Positions 30,890 through 61,753 of a DNA stretch of 64,000 nucleotides are shown here, in pieces (within the stretch, counting starts at the first letter, position 1; each line of letters starts with the position of its first letter). Both the position numbers and the translations under genes were made by a program. The stretch lies in assembly GCF_034421375.1 (NCBI RefSeq), contig NZ_CP139779.1, positions 3,466,055-3,530,054 on the forward strand. The letters are read 5' to 3'. This stretch comes from Microbacterium invictum. Its GTDB lineage: Bacteria > Actinomycetota > Actinomycetes > Actinomycetales > Microbacteriaceae. The notes beneath the pieces were generated by a model. That model was given only the letters and a program-made list of their open reading frames with translations, ran no database searches and was not told the DNA's origin.

Positions 30890-32671
30890 ATGCACACGTT
30901 CGTCAAGCGTGCCCTTTGGGGCACGGTGATCGCCGGCGGTCTCACGCTGTTCGGCACAACGGTCGCCACCGCGGCCGAAACCACGGGGGAGGATGGTCTC
31001 CTCTCCGGCACCCAAGCGGTCGTCGATCTCAACGCACCGGTCTCGGTCGTCGGCAACGCCGTCTCGGTCATCGGTGACAGCGACTCCTCCTCGGAGACGT
31101 CGATGGCTCAGCCGGCGGAGTCAGCGGCCTCGCAGCCGACGGTGACCACCGACGGCTCCGACGGGATCGGATCGGGCTCGCAAGCCGTGCTCGACGTCGA
31201 CGCGCCCGTCACTGTGTCCGGCAACGCCATCTCGGTGCTCGGCGACAGCTCGTCGGAATCCTCGACGACCACGTCGGCGCCGGTGTCGGCGGCGCCGGTC
31301 GCGGCCGAGACGTCCGGCGAGGACAGCATCCTCGGCGGAACGCAGGGACTCGTGTCGGTCGATGCTCCGGTCACCGTCTCGGGCAACGCCATCTCCGGCG
31401 TCGGCGACAGCGACACCAGCTCCGACACCGCCGTCACCACCGGCGGCAATGGCGGAGAGAACGGCGGCGGGATCACCGGCGTGACCTCCGGCGAGGACAG
31501 CATCCTCGGCGGAACCCAGGTCATCGCCCCGATCTCGCTTCCCGTGACGGTCGCCGGAAACGCCATCTCCGGAATCGGCGACAGCGACAGCAGCTCCGAC
31601 ACCGCCGTCACCACCGGCGGCAATGGCGGAGAGAACGGCGGCGGGATCACCGGCGTGACCTCCGGCGAGGACAGCATCCTCGGCGGAACCCAGGTCATCG
31701 CCCCGATCTCGCTTCCCGTGACGGTCGCCGGAAACGCCATCTCCGGAATCGGCGACAGCGACAGCAGCTCCGACACCGCCGTCACCACCGGCGGGAGCGG
31801 CGGCGGGATCACCGGCGTGACCTCCGGCGAGGACAGCTTCCTCGGCGGAACCCAGGTCATCGCCCCGATCTCGCTTCCCGTGACGGTCGCCGGAAACGCC
31901 ATCTCCGGCATCGGCGACAGCGACAGCAGCTCCGACACCGCCGTCACCACCGGCGGCACCGGCGGCGGGATCACCGGCGTAACCTCCGGCGAAGGCAGCA
32001 TCCTCGGCGGAACCCAGATCCTGGCGCCGATCTCGCTTCCGGTCACGATCGGCGGCAACGCCATCTCGGTCATCGGCGACAGCGAGACCGGCTCGACCAC
32101 GGTCGTGCCCGGGACGCCGGGCACCCCGGGTAATCCCGGCACGCCTGGCACTCCTGGGACGCCCGGAACTCCTGGGACGCCTGGCACCCCGGGAACCCCT
32201 GGTCAGCCCGGCACCCCCGGAACCCCTGGTCAGCCCGGCACTCCTGGTCAGCCCGGCACTCCCGGCACCCCTGGTCAGCCTGGAACTCCCGGTCAGCCCG
32301 GCACGCCCGGAACGCCCGGGACTCCCGGTCAGCCCGGCACTCCCGGCACTCCCGGAACCCCTGGCCAGCCCGGCACTCCCGGAACCCCTGGCCAGCCCGG
32401 CACGCCCGGAACGCCTGGCCAGCCCGGAACCCCCGGCACGCCCGGAAACCCCGGTCAGCCCGGAACGCCCGGTACCCCCGGCCAAGCCAGCACCGGCACA
32501 TCCGCTGGCCCGTCATTCGCTGCACAGCGTGTGATGGGCGGCACCGCCACCGCGTCCACGCCCCTCGCCGCCACCGGCGGCACGGTGACCGGCCCGGCAG
32601 CCCTGCTGCTAGCGCTCGGACTCATCGCCCTGGGTGCGGCCCTGCGGACGGTGCGGAGCCGTACGGCGTGA
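30890..32671 (+). CDS. Chaplin-like repeat protein with collagen-like stalk and LAATG anchor
   Basis: The 593-aa protein has a signal peptide ([20 protein letters not shown]... TVATAAE). Seven chaplin-like units follow, each with the core [18 protein letters not shown] preceded by [11 protein letters not shown] (residues about 31-405). A 42-triplet Gly-X-Y region rich in PGT and PGQ (407-532) comes next. The C-terminus has LAATGG, a hydrophobic helix and RSRTA. Chaplins form amphipathic surface films, and LAxTG is the class E sortase signal, so wall anchoring is likely. Unlike most chaplins, the repeats have no cysteine. Repeats 4-6 are nearly identical at DNA level. Confidence 0.88.
31310..32104 (+). 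repeat. Near-identical 162/174-bp chaplin-like repeats
   Basis: Repeat units start at 31310, 31484, 31658, 31820 and 31982. The first two are 174 bp and the next two 162 bp, the difference being a 12-bp piece encoding NGEN-like residues in the linker. Units at 31484 and 31658 are almost identical at nucleotide level, which implies recent duplication and likely copy-number variation between strains. Confidence 0.88.
32108..32485 (+). repeat. Collagen-like Gly-X-Y region, 42 triplets
   Basis: Codons spell uninterrupted PGT/PGQ/PGN triplets (126 residues). Synonymous codons vary (GGC/GGA/GGT/GGG), so the tract is not a recent simple expansion. Such stalks form triple helices and project surface proteins. 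Confidence 0.9.
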
Positions 32672-56261: not shown

Positions 56262-57299
56262 TCAGCTGTCTCCGAAGCCGTTCTCGCCCAGCTCGGCAAG
56301 GATGCGGTTGAGATCCTGAATGCTAGCGAAATCAATGCTGATCTGGCCTTTTCGTGCTGTCAGAGAGATCTTCACACGCGTGTTCAGACGATCACCGAGG
56401 CGCTCCGCGAGCTCGTCGAGGTGGCCTCGTCGCGCGCCCGCCTTCGGACGGGAAGATCGGATCAGACCGGCATCCGTCAGCTTCGCCGCAGACTCCGCGG
56501 CGCGAACCGACAGGTCCTCGTTGACGATCTTGTCGGCGAGGCGCTGCATTGCGTCATCGTCGGGCAGAGAGAGGATGGCGCGGGCGTGACCGGCACTCAG
56601 AACGCCGGCCGCTACCCGCTGCTGCACGGGCACGGGGAGCTTGAGCAGGCGGATGGTGTTGCTGATCTGCGGGCGAGAGCGACCGATGCGGGCCGCCAGC
56701 TCCTCCTGTGTGATGCCGAAGTCTTCGAGGAGCTGCTGGTACGCCGATGCCTCTTCGAGCGGATTGAGCTGCGACCGGTGAAGGTTCTCGAGGAGCGCGT
56801 CACGGAGCAGGTGCTCGTCGGACGTGTCACGGACGACCGCCGGAATGGTGGCGAGTCCCGCTTCGCGCGCGGCACGGGTCCGCCGCTCCCCCATGATGAG
56901 CTCGTAGGACCCGTCGCCGAGGTCACGGACGACGACCGGCTGGAGGACACCGAACTCCCGCACGCTGTGGACGAGCTCCGCGAGGTCGTCGGCGTCGAAG
57001 TGCGTGCGCGGCTGCCGCGGGTTCGGGACGATCGCGTGCGGATCGACCTGCACCAGGCGCGCACCAGGCACGGCGACGAGGTCGGCGGCGTCGTCGGCGG
57101 TCGTCGCCGGCACCGCGTCGTCTCCGGCCGACGGACTCGTGGCGTCAGCTGCGCCGTCATCGACGGACACGGTCTCGGGACGCTCCGCTACCGCGACCGC
57201 GCTCCGAGCGAAGAAGACGTCGGCGGGGCGGGACTCGTTGGGTTCACTGGTGGGGATCAGCGCGCCGATGCCGCGTCCGAGTCCTGTGCGCTTCGCCAT
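56262..57299 (-). CDS. parB: Chromosome partitioning protein ParB
   Basis: The 345-aa CTPase/DNA-binding protein has the start AKRTGLGRGIGALIPTSEP, the N-terminal CTP-binding motifs (NPRQPRTHFD, GERRTRAAREAGLATIPAVV), a parS-recognising helix-turn-helix (ITQEELAARIGRSRPQISNTIRL, in part) and a C-terminal dimerisation domain ending INRILAEL-like NRILAELGENGF. It loads at parS sites, many of which lie 1-2 kb away, and spreads. Its ATG overlaps the parA stop (TGATG). Confidence 0.97.
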   Translation of the reverse strand: MAKRTGLGRGIGALIPTSEPNESRPADVFFARSAVAVAERPETVSVDDGAADATSPSAGDDAVPATTADDAADLVAVPGARLVQVDPHAIVPNPRQPRTHFDADDLAELVHSVREFGVLQPVVVRDLGDGSYELIMGERRTRAAREAGLATIPAVVRDTSDEHLLRDALLENLHRSQLNPLEEASAYQQLLEDFGITQEELAARIGRSRPQISNTIRLLKLPVPVQQRVAAGVLSAGHARAILSLPDDDAMQRLADKIVNEDLSVRAAESAAKLTDAGLIRSSRPKAGARRGHLDELAERLGDRLNTRVKISLTARKGQISIDFASIQDLNRILAELGENGFGDS

Positions 57300-58258
57300 C
57301 AGGCGTCTCCTTCGTGCTGTGTGTTGCTATCGCGGCGGAGGACCTCCACCGCTGCTTCGCGATAAGCGACCGCGCCGGCGGATTGCCCGTCATAGGCGAT
57401 CACCGTCTGCCCGAAGCTCGGTGCCTCCGATACGCGCACCGAACGCGGGATCACCGTCTTCAGAACCTCGTTCGGGAAGTGCGCGCGAACCTCGTCGGCG
57501 ACCTGCTGCGCCAGTCGGGTACGTCCGTCGTACATCGTGAGCATGATCGTCGAGAGGTGAAGCCGGGGATTCAGATGCTTCTGGATCATCCGCACCGTGC
57601 CGAGCAGCTGACTCAGACCCTCGAGCGCGTAGTACTCGCACTGGATCGGAATCAACAGCTCCTGGCCGGCGGCGAAGGCATTGATCGTCAAGAGTCCAAG
57701 GGAAGGCGGGCAGTCGATCAGAACGAAGTCGAGGTGCTCGGGCGTCGTGGCGAGAAAGTCGTCGACGGCCGTGCGAAGCCGATGCTCGCGCGCGACCTGC
57801 GAAACCAGCTCGATCTCCGCCCCTGCAAGGTGGATCGTGCTCGGCGCGCAGAGGAGGTTGTCCGACTCGGGGCTCTTCTGGATGATGTCCGCAAGCGGAA
57901 AGTCGTCGATAAGCACGTCGTAGATGCTGGGCGTGTCGGCATCATGCGGCACACCGAGCGCAGTCGAGGCATTCCCCTGCGGGTCGAGGTCGATGACGAG
58001 GACGCGAGCGCCGAGCGAGGCCAGGGCAGCGGCGAGGTTGACCGTCGTGGTCGTCTTTCCGACCCCGCCCTTCTGGTTCGCGACGGTGAACACGCGAGTC
58101 TTCCCAGAGAATCGCACGTCGACAGTGTCGAGCCGACGCCGTCGCGCAGTGAGATCGGCGAGCTCTCGTGCCAGTGGTGTGTCGTCGAAAGTGACGGAAG
58201 CTGCGGGCGTCCGGTCCTCGGCGTGTTCCACGTGAAACGCTCCGCTCACTTCGTTCAT
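57299..58258 (-). CDS. parA: Chromosome partitioning ATPase ParA (Soj)
   Basis: The 319-aa Walker-type ATPase has the deviant P-loop VANQKGGVGKTTTTVNLAAAL, the switch region VLVIDLDPQGNASTALG, and LDFVLIDCPPSLGLLTINAF. An N-terminal extension of about 60 residues precedes the P-loop, as in other Actinobacteria. ATG 58258 (MNEVSGAFHVEH) was preferred; an ATG at 58291 would add 11 residues but has no spaced ribosome site. Codons for FHVEH contain a near-perfect parS (58224-58239). It drives origin segregation with ParB. Confidence 0.96.
   Translation of the reverse strand: MNEVSGAFHVEHAEDRTPAASVTFDDTPLARELADLTARRRRLDTVDVRFSGKTRVFTVANQKGGVGKTTTTVNLAAALASLGARVLVIDLDPQGNASTALGVPHDADTPSIYDVLIDDFPLADIIQKSPESDNLLCAPSTIHLAGAEIELVSQVAREHRLRTAVDDFLATTPEHLDFVLIDCPPSLGLLTINAFAAGQELLIPIQCEYYALEGLSQLLGTVRMIQKHLNPRLHLSTIMLTMYDGRTRLAQQVADEVRAHFPNEVLKTVIPRSVRVSEAPSFGQTVIAYDGQSAGAVAYREAAVEVLRRDSNTQHEGDA
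58224..58239. promoter_or_regulatory. parS-like site inside parA
   Basis: TGTTCCACGTGAAACG differs by one base from the 14-bp core GTTTCACGTGAAAC. It lies in the first codons of parA. Confidence 0.8.
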
Positions 58259-58426
58259 CACTCGTTCCACTCTAATCGTCCGCTCCGACATCCCCCGACG
58301 CCCACGCGCCGTCCGAGTGTTGTTCCCTTGATGTTCGATCGGCCGTGTGGCCAGCGGTGGCTGGATGTAGTCCCCAGGAAAGCGGTGGTCGAGTCGTCAG
58401 CTCTGCTGCCGTCGAGACCAAGAACA

Positions 58427-58442
58427 TGTTTCACGTGAAACA
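58427..58442. promoter_or_regulatory. parS site (perfect)
   Basis: TGTTTCACGTGAAACA is the complete 16-bp ParB-binding palindrome, upstream of parA. Confidence 0.95.
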
Positions 58443-58507
58443 CCGGAGGGGTGTCTCGCGGCAGAGCACGGGCCCAATTCCGGCGGCGGGGTGGGTGGCT
58501 TCGTCAA

Positions 58508-58523
58508 TGTTTCACGTGAAACG
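58508..58523. promoter_or_regulatory. parS site
   Basis: TGTTTCACGTGAAACG has the perfect 14-bp core. It is the first member of the regular array of about 122-bp period. Confidence 0.95.
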
Positions 58524-58628
58524 CCTGACGTCCACACGCGCCTACGCTGCTCCTCGATTCCCGTGGGCCACCGCCTCGCAGGTGGTGATCGAGTAGGCAG
58601 CTTGCTGCGTTATCGAAACCATCACGAG

Positions 58629-58644
58629 GGTTTCACGTGAAGCT
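58629..58644. promoter_or_regulatory. parS site, one core mismatch
   Basis: GGTTTCACGTGAAGCT: the core has one change (AAGC for AAAC) and both outer bases differ. It occupies the expected place 121 bp after the preceding site. Confidence 0.7.
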
Positions 58645-58748
58645 TGATCTCGATACGCGCCTGCGGCGCTACTCGATCACCAGCACGGCGCGGTCTCACA
58701 TGTGGTAGTCGAGTGGGCAGCTCCGCTACCAGATCGAGACCACGTCAA

Positions 58749-58764
58749 TGTTTCACGTGAAACC
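58749..58764. promoter_or_regulatory. parS site
   Basis: TGTTTCACGTGAAACC has the perfect 14-bp core and lies in the third unit of the array. Confidence 0.95.
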
Positions 58765-58869
58765 CCCAACTCGACACGCCCCTCCAGCTCTACACGATCA
58801 CCAGAACGGCGCCGTCTCACATGCGGTAGTCGAGTGGGCAGCTCCGCTGCCGTAGCGGGACCACGTCGA

Positions 58870-58885
58870 TGTCTCACGCGGGACG
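58870..58885. promoter_or_regulatory. Degenerate parS site
   Basis: TGTCTCACGCGGGACG occupies the parS position of an array unit but has four core changes. It probably no longer binds ParB well. Confidence 0.6.
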
Positions 58886-58990
58886 CCGATCTCGATACGC
58901 GCCTGCAGCGCTACTCGATCGCCAGTAGGGCGCCGTCTCGCATCTGGTGGTCGAGTAGGCAGCTCCGCTGCCGTATCGAGACCTCGTCGA

Positions 58991-59006
58991 TGTTTCACGT
59001 GAAACG
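58991..59006. promoter_or_regulatory. parS site
   Basis: TGTTTCACGTGAAACG has the perfect core. This unit and the next are nearly identical over their whole length. Confidence 0.95.
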
Positions 59007-59113
59007 CTCGATCTCGATTCGCGCCTTCGGTGCTACTCGATCACCAGGACGGCGCCGTCCTCGCATCTGGTGGTCGAGTAGGCAGCTCCGCTGCCGTATC
59101 GAGACCTCGTCGA

Positions 59114-59129
59114 TGTTTCACGTGAAACG
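59114..59129. promoter_or_regulatory. parS site
   Basis: TGTTTCACGTGAAACG has the perfect core. It lies 123 bp from the preceding site. Confidence 0.95.
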
Positions 59130-59236
59130 CTCGATCTCGATTCGCGCCTTCGGTGCTACTCGATCACCAGGACGGCGGCGTCCTCGCAGGTGGTGGTCGA
59201 GTAGGCAGCTCCGCTGCCGTATCGAGACCACGTCGA

Positions 59237-59252
59237 TGTCTCACGCGGGACG
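59237..59252. promoter_or_regulatory. Degenerate parS site
   Basis: TGTCTCACGCGGGACG is identical to the degenerate copy at 58870, including long flanks, so the whole unit was duplicated after the site decayed. Confidence 0.6.
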
Positions 59253-59358
59253 CCGATCTCGATACGCGCCTGCAGCGCTACTCGATCGCCAGTAAGGAAG
59301 CAGTCACACAAGTGGTGCTCGGGTAGGCAGCTCCGCTGCCGTATCGAGACCTCGTCGA

Positions 59359-59374
59359 TGTTTCACGTGAAACC
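59359..59374. promoter_or_regulatory. parS site
   Basis: TGTTTCACGTGAAACC has the perfect core and is the last member of the regular array. Confidence 0.95.
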
Positions 59375-59428
59375 CTTTGTTCCACTTCGGTGGTGAAGAG
59401 GCAGCTTGCTGTCTTCTCCAGGCATCGA

Positions 59429-59444
59429 CGTTTCACGTGAAACA
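59429..59444. promoter_or_regulatory. parS site
   Basis: CGTTTCACGTGAAACA has the perfect core. It lies 70 bp from the preceding site, outside the regular spacing. Confidence 0.95.
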
Positions 59445-59592
59445 CGTGATCTCGGTTCGCGCCTTCGGCGCTAGACGATCTCCGGCGGCTCACCGCTTAT
59501 CAACCGGTGGTCGAGTACCGGGCTCGCTCGTCCTCACGAGACCATGAGCCGCAAACAACATCCATTGAGAGGTTGGTGGCAGCTCACCCGAT

Positions 59593-59892
59593 TCAATCGC
59601 CGCCACCGGGCCGCCGCGGGGGCTTCCGGCTCAGCGCGTTGAGCGAATCCAGTCGGCCGTGAACGAGAGCGAGACGCTTCGCCCGGCCCCACCGTTGCAC
59701 CTGCTTCTCTCTTCGAAAAGCATCGGCCACGTTCTCAAACTCTTCCACGTAGAGCAGGCGGACGGGAAGCCGCCTCTTGGTGTACTCGGAGCCCATGCCT
59801 TCGTTGTGTTGAACGAGGCGCAGACCCAGATCCCTCGTGCTTCCGACATAAGTGGAACGGTCGCTGCACTCGAGGATGTACATGTAGGCCAT
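59593..59892 (-). CDS. GIY-YIG nuclease superfamily protein
   Basis: The 99-aa product is a stand-alone GIY-YIG domain of the UPF0213/YhbQ kind: MAYMYILECSDRSTYVGSTRDLGLRLVQHN (Y-I/L and Y-V-G strands, then arginine and histidine), YTKRRLPVRLLYVEEFENVADAFRREKQVQRW with the catalytic glutamate in RREKQVQ. The start at 59892 matches the family (four residues before YILEC); 8 more codons are open. It lies isolated between two REP arrays. Members have weak or unknown nuclease activity. Confidence 0.88.
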   Translation of the reverse strand: MAYMYILECSDRSTYVGSTRDLGLRLVQHNEGMGSEYTKRRLPVRLLYVEEFENVADAFRREKQVQRWGRAKRLALVHGRLDSLNALSRKPPRRPGGGD

Positions 59893-60013
59893 GGATCGAT
59901 GATCGTCTGACTCCATGCTGCTGCGCCGACAGTTCGGATATTTTGGGGACAGGTGGGTCTGGGCACCAGATGTGCAGGACAGATGGTGAATGACGCCAGT
60001 GACACGGTGCTCA

Positions 60014-60600
60014 GATCTCGATACGCGCCTTCGGCGCTACTCGATCACCGAGGACGCTCCCACGCATCACGCATGCAACGACACACGCCCCGACGTCCTG
60101 GGATACGTCCGCTCGCGCCGGTGGTCGAGTAGGCGGCGCGGCCGCCGTATCGAGACCCAGTCACATTGCCGACCAGCCAGACGAGGCCAGGATCTCGATA
60201 CGCGCCTTCGGCGCTACTCGATCACCGAGGACGCTCCCACGCATCACGCATGCAACGACACACGCTCACGACGTCCCGGGATACGTCCGCTCGAGCCGGT
60301 GGTCGAGTAGGCGGCGCGGCCGCCGTATCGAGACCCAGTCACATTGCCGACCAGCAAGACGAGGCCAGGATCTCGATACGCGCCTTCGGCGCTACTCGAT
60401 CACCAAGGACGCTCCCACGCATCACGCATGCAACGACACACGCTCACGACGTCCCGGGATACGTCCGCTCGAGCCGGTGGTCGAGTAGGCGGCGCAGCCG
60501 CCGTATCGAGACCCAGGCACCCCAGCCGACCAGCCAGCACAGGGTCCGGATCTCGATACGCGCCTCCGGCGCTACTCGATCACCGAGGGGAGCGAGAGAT
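60014..60600. repeat. Tandem REP-like array, ~178-bp units, without parS
   Basis: GATCTCGATACGCGCC starts at 60014, 60191, 60369 and 60549 (spacing 177, 178, 180). Each full unit has a hairpin (TCTCGATACGCGCC, TTCGGCGC, TACTCGATCACC), a spacer with GCATCACGCATGCAACGACA, then the inverted partner GGTGGTCGAGTAGGCGGCGC with CCGCCGTATCGAGACCC. The fourth unit is cut by the 3' end of rsmG. No gene is seen in 59917-60579. Confidence 0.9.
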
Positions 60601-61284
60601 GCGGGCGCGCAGCGCGCGCGTCGGCTCCGACAGGACGCCCTCGCCGAGGACCTCCACGCGCGCATCGACGACATGGAACCTTCGGAATTGCTTCGTCGCC
60701 GCCTCGATCTCGGCCTGCGCGTTCTGACCCTTGAGGAAGATCAACTCGCCGCCGTCGCGAACGAGCGGCGCCGTCAAGGGCAGAAGGCTTCGGAGAACAC
60801 TTACCGCCCGTGCGGTGACAGCGTCGAGCACCGCCCCTTCGCGCCACTCCTCGGCGCGAGCCCGCACGACCTCGACATTCCGAAGCCCCAGGTCTCCCAC
60901 CTGCTCCGAGAGCCACGCCACACGACGCTCCATCGGCTCGATGAGGACCCACTGCACATCGGGCCGCGCGATCGCCAGAAGGATCCCGGGGAGCCCCGCC
61001 CCGGAGCCGACATCGCCGACGCGACCTCCAGCCGGAAACAACGGCGCGGCGATCACACTGTTGAGCACATGACGCGTCCACAGACGGGGGAGCTCGAGCG
61101 GTCCGATGAGACCGCGTTCCTCGCCATGCTCCGCCAACGCCCGAGTGAACCGACGGGCCTGTTCGATCCCATCGCCGAAGAGAGACGCCGCAGCGGCCGG
61201 CTCGGCTTCTATCGGCGCCGGTGTTTCACGTGGAACGCCCGCGTCAGCCACGTCGGATGACCGTGTGACGGTCGGCGCCCTCAC
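60580..61284 (-). CDS. rsmG: 16S rRNA (guanine-527-N7)-methyltransferase RsmG
   Basis: The 234-aa methyltransferase has the SAM motif GGRVGDVGSGAGLPGILLAI (about residues 90-109), PMERRVAWLSEQV and LDAVTARAVSVLRSLLPLTAPL, with ELIFLKGQNAQAEIE near the end. GTG 61284 is preferred since GGAG lies seven bases upstream; it overlaps jag by 41 bp. The N-terminal codons for GVPRETP contain a parS-like site. The last codons and stop (SRSPR, TGA) come from a REP element. Confidence 0.93.
   Translation of the reverse strand: MRAPTVTRSSDVADAGVPRETPAPIEAEPAAAASLFGDGIEQARRFTRALAEHGEERGLIGPLELPRLWTRHVLNSVIAAPLFPAGGRVGDVGSGAGLPGILLAIARPDVQWVLIEPMERRVAWLSEQVGDLGLRNVEVVRARAEEWREGAVLDAVTARAVSVLRSLLPLTAPLVRDGGELIFLKGQNAQAEIEAATKQFRRFHVVDARVEVLGEGVLSEPTRALRARISRSPR
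61222..61237. promoter_or_regulatory. parS-like site inside rsmG
   Basis: TGTTTCACGTGGAACG has one mismatch in the 14-bp core and lies in the N-terminal codons of rsmG. Confidence 0.8.
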
Positions 61285-61753
61285 CGTACGACTCCGAGAC
61301 CAGCCCACGCTCCGCGACGATGTCGTGGATCAGCTTGCGCTCGTAGCTCGACATCGCGGGCAGAGAGGCCTGCGTCGCCCCCTCGTCCAGACGCGCCGCC
61401 GCACGGTCGACGAGCTTCTCGAGCTCGCGCTGCCGCGCGTCGCGCGACCCACCGATGTCGAGGATCACCCGCGACAGTCGCCCGGTACGGTTCTGCACCG
61501 CGATCCGCGTCAACTCCTGCAGCGCCTGAACGGTCTCGGGGTCGGACAGCAGAGAGAGCGAGTCGCCCGACTCACCCTCGACCGACACGTAGGGACGACC
61601 GGCACGAACGTCGAGGGTCAGGTCGCCGTCCACGTCGGCGATATCGAGCAGCCCCTCGATGAAGTCGGCTGCGATATCGCTTTCCTCCTCGAGCTGCTCG
61701 ACGGTCGGTTCTTCGCGATTCGGGCGTGCGTCAACGGGCGCGACGTCAGACAT
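61244..61753 (-). CDS. jag: R3H/KH domain RNA-binding protein Jag (KhpB)
   Basis: The 169-aa protein has an acidic N-terminus, a KH-like domain (ADFIEGLLDIADVDGDLTLDV, PETVQALQELTRIAVQNRTG) and an R3H domain (LPAMSSYERKLIHDIVAERG, with the conserved R..H pair). It binds RNA, and in other Gram-positives acts with KhpA in cell-division and envelope control. The Jag-N domain of Bacillus is lacking, as usual in Actinobacteria. It lies 28 bp downstream of yidC. Confidence 0.95.
   Translation of the reverse strand: MSDVAPVDARPNREEPTVEQLEEESDIAADFIEGLLDIADVDGDLTLDVRAGRPYVSVEGESGDSLSLLSDPETVQALQELTRIAVQNRTGRLSRVILDIGGSRDARQRELEKLVDRAAARLDEGATQASLPAMSSYERKLIHDIVAERGLVSESYGEGADRHTVIRRG

Follow-up and report, generated by a model that had tools for sequence, protein, structure and literature searches.

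Why does Microbacterium invictum carry ten parS or parS-like sites packed into ~1 kb between parA and rsmG, and how did so dense a cluster arise? The window, meaning the whole stretch of DNA that was analyzed, is the final 64 kb of the single-contig, 3,530,054-base genome. On the minus strand, the gene order is rnpA, yidD, yidC, jag, rsmG, a 2.3-kb interval, parA, and parB, where rnpA and yidD are presumed from position. About 5 kb separate the array from the contig end, and dnaA/oriC is presumed to come next after that end, based on the rnpA-yidC-rsmG order. The 2.3-kb interval contains a tandem array, a GIY-YIG gene, and a second array. Large tandem repeats with periods of 162-336 and 18-45 bp are also found at 31309-32482, distant from the parS array. 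The principal features of the locus are:

56262-57299, minus strand: parB (ParB_N, HTH_ParB, and ParB_C domains; GERRTR motif present)
57299-58291, minus strand: parA (domain annotation)
58384-59542, unstranded: tandem REP-parS-REP array, intergenic, from parA to the GIY-YIG gene (Tandem Repeats Finder and motif scan)
59593-59916, minus strand: single-domain Slx1-like (UPF0213-type) GIY-YIG nuclease gene, the companion of the T1 REPs (Pfam PF01541, E 4.7e-16)
60014-60588, unstranded: second T1 REP array, without parS; period 178 bp, 3.2 copies, 94% matches (repeat finder)
60580-61308, minus strand: rsmG (GidB), which bounds the parS cluster on the right (domain annotation)

ParB is canonical, as the N, HTH, and C domains are all found, and it carries the GERRTR motif. 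A canonical palindromic parS core, GTTTCACGTGAAAC, adjoins parAB. The individual sites, all unstranded, are:

58225-58238: parS with 1 mismatch, within the parA reading frame (motif scan)
58428-58441: perfect parS, REP on the left side only (motif scan and doublet scoring)
58509-58522: perfect parS (motif scan)
58630-58643: parS with 1 mismatch, hinge of a tail-in REP doublet (motif scan and doublet scoring)
58750-58763: perfect parS, hinge of a degenerate tail-in REP doublet (motif scan and doublet scoring)
58871-58884: decayed parS with 4 mismatches, in register (motif comparison)
58992-59005: perfect parS, hinge of a tail-in REP doublet (motif scan and doublet scoring)
59115-59128: perfect parS, hinge of a tail-in REP doublet (motif scan and doublet scoring)
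59238-59251: decayed parS with 4 mismatches, sequence as at 58871 (motif comparison)
59360-59373: perfect parS, REP on the left side only (motif scan and doublet scoring)
59430-59443: perfect parS (motif scan)
61223-61236: parS with 1 mismatch, within rsmG (motif scan)

The motif scan bears out the two counts of an earlier note on this DNA, namely seven perfect cores with three in-register variants in ~1 kb, and eight sites spaced 120-123 bp apart. The start-to-start steps of these eight, from 58509 to 59360, are 121, 120, 121, 121, 123, 123, and 122 bp. Tandem Repeats Finder reports 7.2 copies with a period of 121 and 82% matches over 58501-59373. Ten sites with at most one mismatch occur in the window, where 100 shuffles give a mean of 0.01. 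No perfect parS lies outside the array in the whole 3,530,054-base genome. A whole-genome scan allowing two mismatches yields 11 sites, one of them away from the locus (2448009, 2 mismatches), and a reversed control pattern also gives 1 match. The variants at 58871 and 59238 share one decayed sequence, GTCTCACGCGGGAC, with identical four transitions. In the part of the Corynebacterium glutamicum study that covers degenerate sites, those with three or more mismatches recruited no ParB (PMC7083940), so the two four-mismatch sites are probably silent.

The earlier note had held clustering to be unusual because parS sites are normally scattered, and this does not hold up. Perfect parS sites number 3-14 in each of 59/59 sampled Microbacterium genomes. 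Among the sites listed, which in one case are 9 of 10, the spread is 0.8-7.7 kb in 10 genomes of the genus, so that all ten with positions have clusters, and two perfect sites lie 74-104 bp apart in 36/149. A similar case is described in part of the Myxococcus xanthus literature, where 3 kb near parA holds 22 putative parS (PMC3899335). A scan for triples of perfect parS spaced 107-137 bp apart, using one genome per species, returned at least 118 stretches, of which the 80 with titles come from many phyla. Among the matches listed, the best spacer pair is at least 70% identical at 42/118 loci and at least 85% identical at 27/118; the maximum between unrelated spacers is 64%. Because dense clusters are usual in Microbacterium, M. 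xanthus provides an example, and tandem arrays recur, the parS array by itself is not unique.

Some arrays are more regular than that of M. invictum. With at most one mismatch allowed, eleven sites are spaced 125-126 bp apart in L077 and eighteen are spaced 43 or 86 bp apart in L099. Together with L051, L105, and L114, these are highly regular arrays from other lineages, with periods of ~125 (L077), 43 (L099), 55 (L051), 124 (L105), and 59 bp (L114) and near-identical spacers, and they are apparently convergent. The 42 repeated-spacer loci agree with an account in which a parS-bearing intergenic segment was plainly duplicated in tandem, the REPs were carried along as passengers, being terminators or old repeats, and the nuclease gene lies nearby without any relation to them. 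The two best copies of the M. invictum repeat are:

58946-59068, unstranded: best-preserved unit (REP> at 58946-58983, parS, <REP at 59010-59045, linker)
59069-59191, unstranded: second unit copy (REP> at 59069-59106, <REP at 59133-59168)

The best-preserved unit is composed of a REP> of 38 nt, 8 nt, parS, 4 nt, a <REP of 36 nt, and a 23-nt linker. This anatomy is near certain. Where best kept, the units are REPIN-like doublets, i.e., two inverted T1 REPs with parS in the hinge. The claim of the earlier note that parS was amplified in tandem as part of a REP-like composite unit is supported both by this anatomy and by the period of 121. The two copies are 99% identical, as expected from plain duplication. 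Eight array sites have no more than one mismatch: four are between inward REPs (58630, 58750, 58992, and 59115), two have a left REP only, and two have no REP.

Predicted single-stranded folding of the 100-nt core common to both units gives a cloverleaf (z = -4.69) in which the two REPs form the lateral stem-loops and parS occupies the middle arm. For a unit whose parS is decayed, z = -3.00, and one degraded unit folds no better than chance (z = -0.13). When the two REPs are folded individually, the left one reaches z = -3.02 and the right one does no better than chance (z = -0.64). The two units with decayed sites (starts 58825 and 59192) are 93% identical over 115 nt, which suggests duplication of a unit whose parS was already lost. 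G051, the relative whose GIY-YIG protein is most similar (84%), has parS in its parA-rsmG interval but lacks a period of the 120-bp type, and the array is therefore probably young.

The T1 palindrome has the layout TCGAGTAG-stem-loop-TATCGAGA. Stems of 4 bp or more are kept in 39 of 59 distinct interiors, and shuffles give a mean of 9.5 and a largest value of 16. Like REPs, T1 is a short imperfect palindrome with a stem that is conserved while the sequence varies, and like REPs and REPINs it occurs in inverted doublets. A hairpin finder tolerating few mismatches overlooked these bulged REPs. Exact T1 is present in 19/149 genomes of the genus and lies at many places in G113 (32 copies) and G003 (24 copies). 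The M. invictum genome has 14 exact copies, 13 at the parS locus and 1 solitary. T1 without parS is found there only in the neighboring array (60014-60588) and in the solitary copy. This near confinement to the parS locus agrees with plain duplication, and with 13/14 copies at one locus T1 is hardly dispersed, so local duplication alone may explain the array.

Ectopic spread of parS by REPs was considered and rejected. Of 30 T1 loci fetched, 14 are away from parS and none of these has parS within 1.5 kb, so no carriage of parS about the chromosome by REPs is visible. The earlier note had put its reading at risk on a parS-less unit being absent elsewhere and on spacing without a period; relatives have T1 without parS at those 14 loci, and the spacing is periodic.

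The solitary T1 REP is located at genome position 1301626 (L173:1501-1531), downstream of a gene that is taken to be groEL from its last residues. At this groEL-like site, a T1 or T1-like REP is present in G051, G121, G017, and G018, in the other orientation in G018, and the REP is absent in G007, G136, and G138. In G051, an exact T1 lies within the stretch matched to the solitary site (L313). The presence of a REP downstream of one same gene thus varies by species. A precise empty target-site pair for the solitary copy was sought among relatives and not found.

Classical REPs are mobilized by RAYT transposases. T1 has a GTAG immediately before its inner stem, which would fit classical RAYT-mobilized (GTAG) REPs, with the GIY-YIG gene merely marking repeat-rich places. 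A profile search for a RAYT-type Y1_Tnp domain, positive in 5/14 control genomes, detected none in the M. invictum genome and one in 1/149 genomes of the genus. The RAYT account would also not predict the nuclease phylogeny described below, which tracks REP type, and it is regarded as highly improbable.

The gene between the two arrays encodes a single-domain GIY-YIG protein. Its closest solved structures are 1zg2 and 1ywl (UPF0213), which Dunin-Horkawicz et al. 2006 assign to the Slx1 family in the section on these structures (PMC1564403). Homologues are found in 62/149 genomes of the genus, specifically in 18/19 genomes with exact T1 versus 44/130 without. The exception is G003, in which the gene went undetected despite the 24 exact T1 copies; this genome is 94%-complete and fragmented.

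In the genus, 75 loci with the gene, including a few gene fragments, were compared with 20 controls over at most 1.5 kb on either side. After masking of the gene and parS, the flanks are rich in repeated 12-mers at 59/75 loci versus 3/20 controls (Fisher p 2.7e-7). Inverted repeats span the gene (score of at least 30) at 60/75 loci versus 1/20 controls, and the other 15 fall below this threshold. REP-like flanks are recognized by signature words at 72/75 loci versus 2/20 controls, the words having been derived from the tested loci and the controls being arbitrary stretches, largely of coding sequence, from ten genomes. By REP type, 18 loci are T1, 30 are T2, 19 are T3, 5 are T4, and 3 have none.

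A tree was built from 70 of the nuclease proteins after 5 short rows were dropped and 2 YazA outgroup rows were added. Many inner branches are weak because the alignment has few columns (93). REP type combined with parS location requires 8 changes on this tree, with a possible minimum of 7 and a shuffled mean of 41.3, and REP type alone requires 3. One locus, L238, which was scored T3 although its T4 words are nearly as numerous, groups with the T4/T2 side. Given the origin of the signature words and the largely coding nature of the controls, the tree is stronger evidence than the flank counts. Taken together, an association between nuclease and REP is very probable. A search of titles and abstracts, preprints and most subscription journals aside, found no description of a GIY-YIG/REP association or of tandem parS with REPs.

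Inverted flanks also occur beyond the genus. In a class-level sample, 19/197 genomes have homologues, and 15 of these are outside Microbacterium. Homologous genes from other actinobacterial genera number 26, and the analysis covered 24 of their loci. Inverted repeats span the gene at 23/24 of these versus 1/20 controls, 16/24 pass the repeated-12-mer threshold, and parS is near none of the 24. The pairing of particular palindrome families with particular nuclease subfamilies is repeated at unrelated loci, which counts against plain duplication with an unrelated neighbor.

Plasmid homologues were inspected at 14 loci (14 of 40 records listed), of which 8 have inverted flanks: two in Methylobacterium and one each in Novosphingobium, Sphingomonas parapaucimobilis, Sinorhizobium, Azospirillum, Sphingobium, and Rhizobium. 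The six below the threshold are from Sphingomonas paeninsulae, Acidiphilium, Cupriavidus, and Variovorax, together with the YazA genes of Bacillus and Radiobacillus. By eye, the Rhizobium and Azospirillum palindromes read CGTC...CCA, the layout that defines CGTC REPs where Di Nocera et al. set out these elements (PMC3733652). On an Azospirillum lipoferum plasmid (L303:1486-1779), a GIY-YIG gene flanked by CGTC-type palindromes lies between sufB and sufC, an arrangement that looks like an insertion into the suf operon.

Nuclease, REP, and parS occur together at 25 of the 75 loci in the genus. Among these 25, 19 show parA and rsmG with the gene between them, 5 show one of the two, and 1 shows neither. 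All 18 T1 loci are at parS, as are 6/30 T2 loci and one locus without a typed REP. The location at parS changes twice on the nuclease tree, which most simply means two arrivals in the parS cluster, although change counts do not distinguish gain from loss. The gene is co-directional with parA/rsmG at 23 comparable parS-cluster loci and is inverted in G138 (L222:1504-1773). The idea that a GIY-YIG gene in the cluster brings more parS was tried and dropped, as parS numbers are 7.7 (10 genomes) versus 6.7 (49 genomes), with p = 0.27.

The orientation of the REPs is also ordered. The nearest T1 REP points inward toward the gene in 14/16 scored cases on the left and 16/18 on the right, and T2 does so less clearly (20/29 and 21/29). 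At 23 T1 loci, 32 of 159 parS are within tail-in doublets and 2 are within head-in doublets, compared with 3.0% and 2.6% of random positions; tandem parS copies are not independent in these counts. At least one parS lies in a tail-in doublet at 10/23 loci, and the lengths of the units differ among the loci with such doublets. Without four loci that were chosen for parS triples, the counts are 20 versus 2 of 124 parS at 19 loci, 8 of which have one. Individual T1 copies turn their tail to parS in 65 cases and their head in 26. Counted per locus, the preference is 11 versus 4 with 3 undecided and is not significant (p = 0.12). T2 clusters have no tail preference, with 13 tail versus 25 head copies within 60 bp, and among 50 parS at 7 T2 loci there are 5 head-in and 2 tail-in doublets.

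The enrichment of parS in T1 doublets at 10/23 loci, with differing unit lengths, is a second point against plain duplication of one segment, which is judged unlikely overall. The same hinge position could instead mean that REP doublets serve the centromere, with hairpins or cruciforms aiding the loading of ParB, its bridging, or the retention of its clamp, and that the array was selected for this. The strongly folding cloverleaf of the best-preserved unit is in keeping with such a role, as is the fact that the array contains all of the genome's perfect parS. Yet parS is present in 59/59 sampled genomes and exact T1 in only 19/149, T2 clusters do not share the T1 orientation, and the part of the C. 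glutamicum study on site number shows that a single parS is sufficient (PMC7083940). Service to the centromere is accordingly considered quite improbable.

The preferred reading, with a probability of about 0.6, is that REP/GIY-YIG elements settled in the ParB-loading parS cluster and that REP-parS-REP was then multiplied by local duplication. REPs and their companion nuclease do lie in the cluster. The REPs may have settled there, at a place that tolerates extra intergenic DNA. The REP-parS-REP unit would have been multiplied by slippage or unequal recombination involving the REPs, as its near-identical copies suggest, and for 58946-59191 (99% identical copies) the multiplication would be recent. 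ParB loads at intact parS and then spreads. It would thus load at the intact array sites, and the extra copies would be largely redundant; most are probably so because one parS suffices in C. glutamicum (PMC7083940).

Whether the nuclease drives REP mobilization is evenly balanced. The Slx1-like enzyme may act on REP hairpins or cruciforms and thereby promote REP copying or recombination. The step is plausible because eukaryotic Slx1 is described, in the passage on its function, as maintaining rDNA copy number (PMC1564403). The earlier note had proposed that a REP was co-opted as a parS carrier. The physical part of this proposal stands, as parS is inside a REP composite, and the direction was probably the reverse, with REP/GIY-YIG elements settling in a parS cluster. 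The part that would surprise a specialist is the REP/GIY-YIG partnership, for which the literature search gave no earlier description; the parS array itself is a variant of a known arrangement.

A broader reading is offered tentatively, at slightly less than even odds. Standalone Slx1-like GIY-YIG proteins would be a second class of REP enzyme beside RAYTs, with REPs specific to each subclade in actinobacteria, CGTC REPs as possible partners, and a reshaped centromere in Microbacterium. The elements would, most simply, have entered the Microbacterium parS cluster in two nuclease lineages, and parS would have become hinge cargo of selfish REP doublets. If true, REPs without a RAYT gain a candidate mobilizer, a 100-residue GIY-YIG nuclease with a phylogeny that predicts the adjoining palindrome. 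The CGTC REPs of alphaproteobacteria might gain the dedicated enzyme that was missing for them in the report of Di Nocera et al. (PMC3733652). A REP element family would also be able to colonize and multiply bacterial centromeres, a small parallel to the repeat-built centromeres of eukaryotes.

Among known systems, RAYT-mobilized REPs, BIMEs, and REPINs are similar in their 20-40-nt imperfect palindromes, inverted doublets, and adjoining dedicated gene with a phylogeny that tracks REP type. The T1 system differs in that it has no RAYT, its companion is a GIY-YIG nuclease, parS occupies the hinge, and few copies are dispersed in M. invictum. CGTC-tagged REPs are likewise palindromes reported without a dedicated transposase in the relevant part of Di Nocera et al. 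2013 (PMC3733652), and CGTC...CCA palindromes flank the plasmid GIY-YIG homologues of Rhizobium and Azospirillum; the T1 sequence, in contrast, has neither the CGTC tag nor the CCA tail.

Standalone Slx1-like GIY-YIG proteins, including YazA/UPF0213 as treated in part of PMC1564403, share the one domain and the nearest structures 1zg2/1ywl. The YazA-type genes of L308 and L311 differ in having trmN- and rsmI-like neighbors and no repeats on their flanks, and their proteins branch apart from the 70 genus proteins. Chromosomal parS clusters, as described in portions of the reports on C. glutamicum (ten parS in 35 kb, PMC7083940) and M. xanthus (PMC3899335), also have multiple canonical parS near parAB and a canonical ParB. 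Compared with these two, only M. invictum has the 120-123-bp register, the REP doublets, and a nuclease gene inside the cluster.
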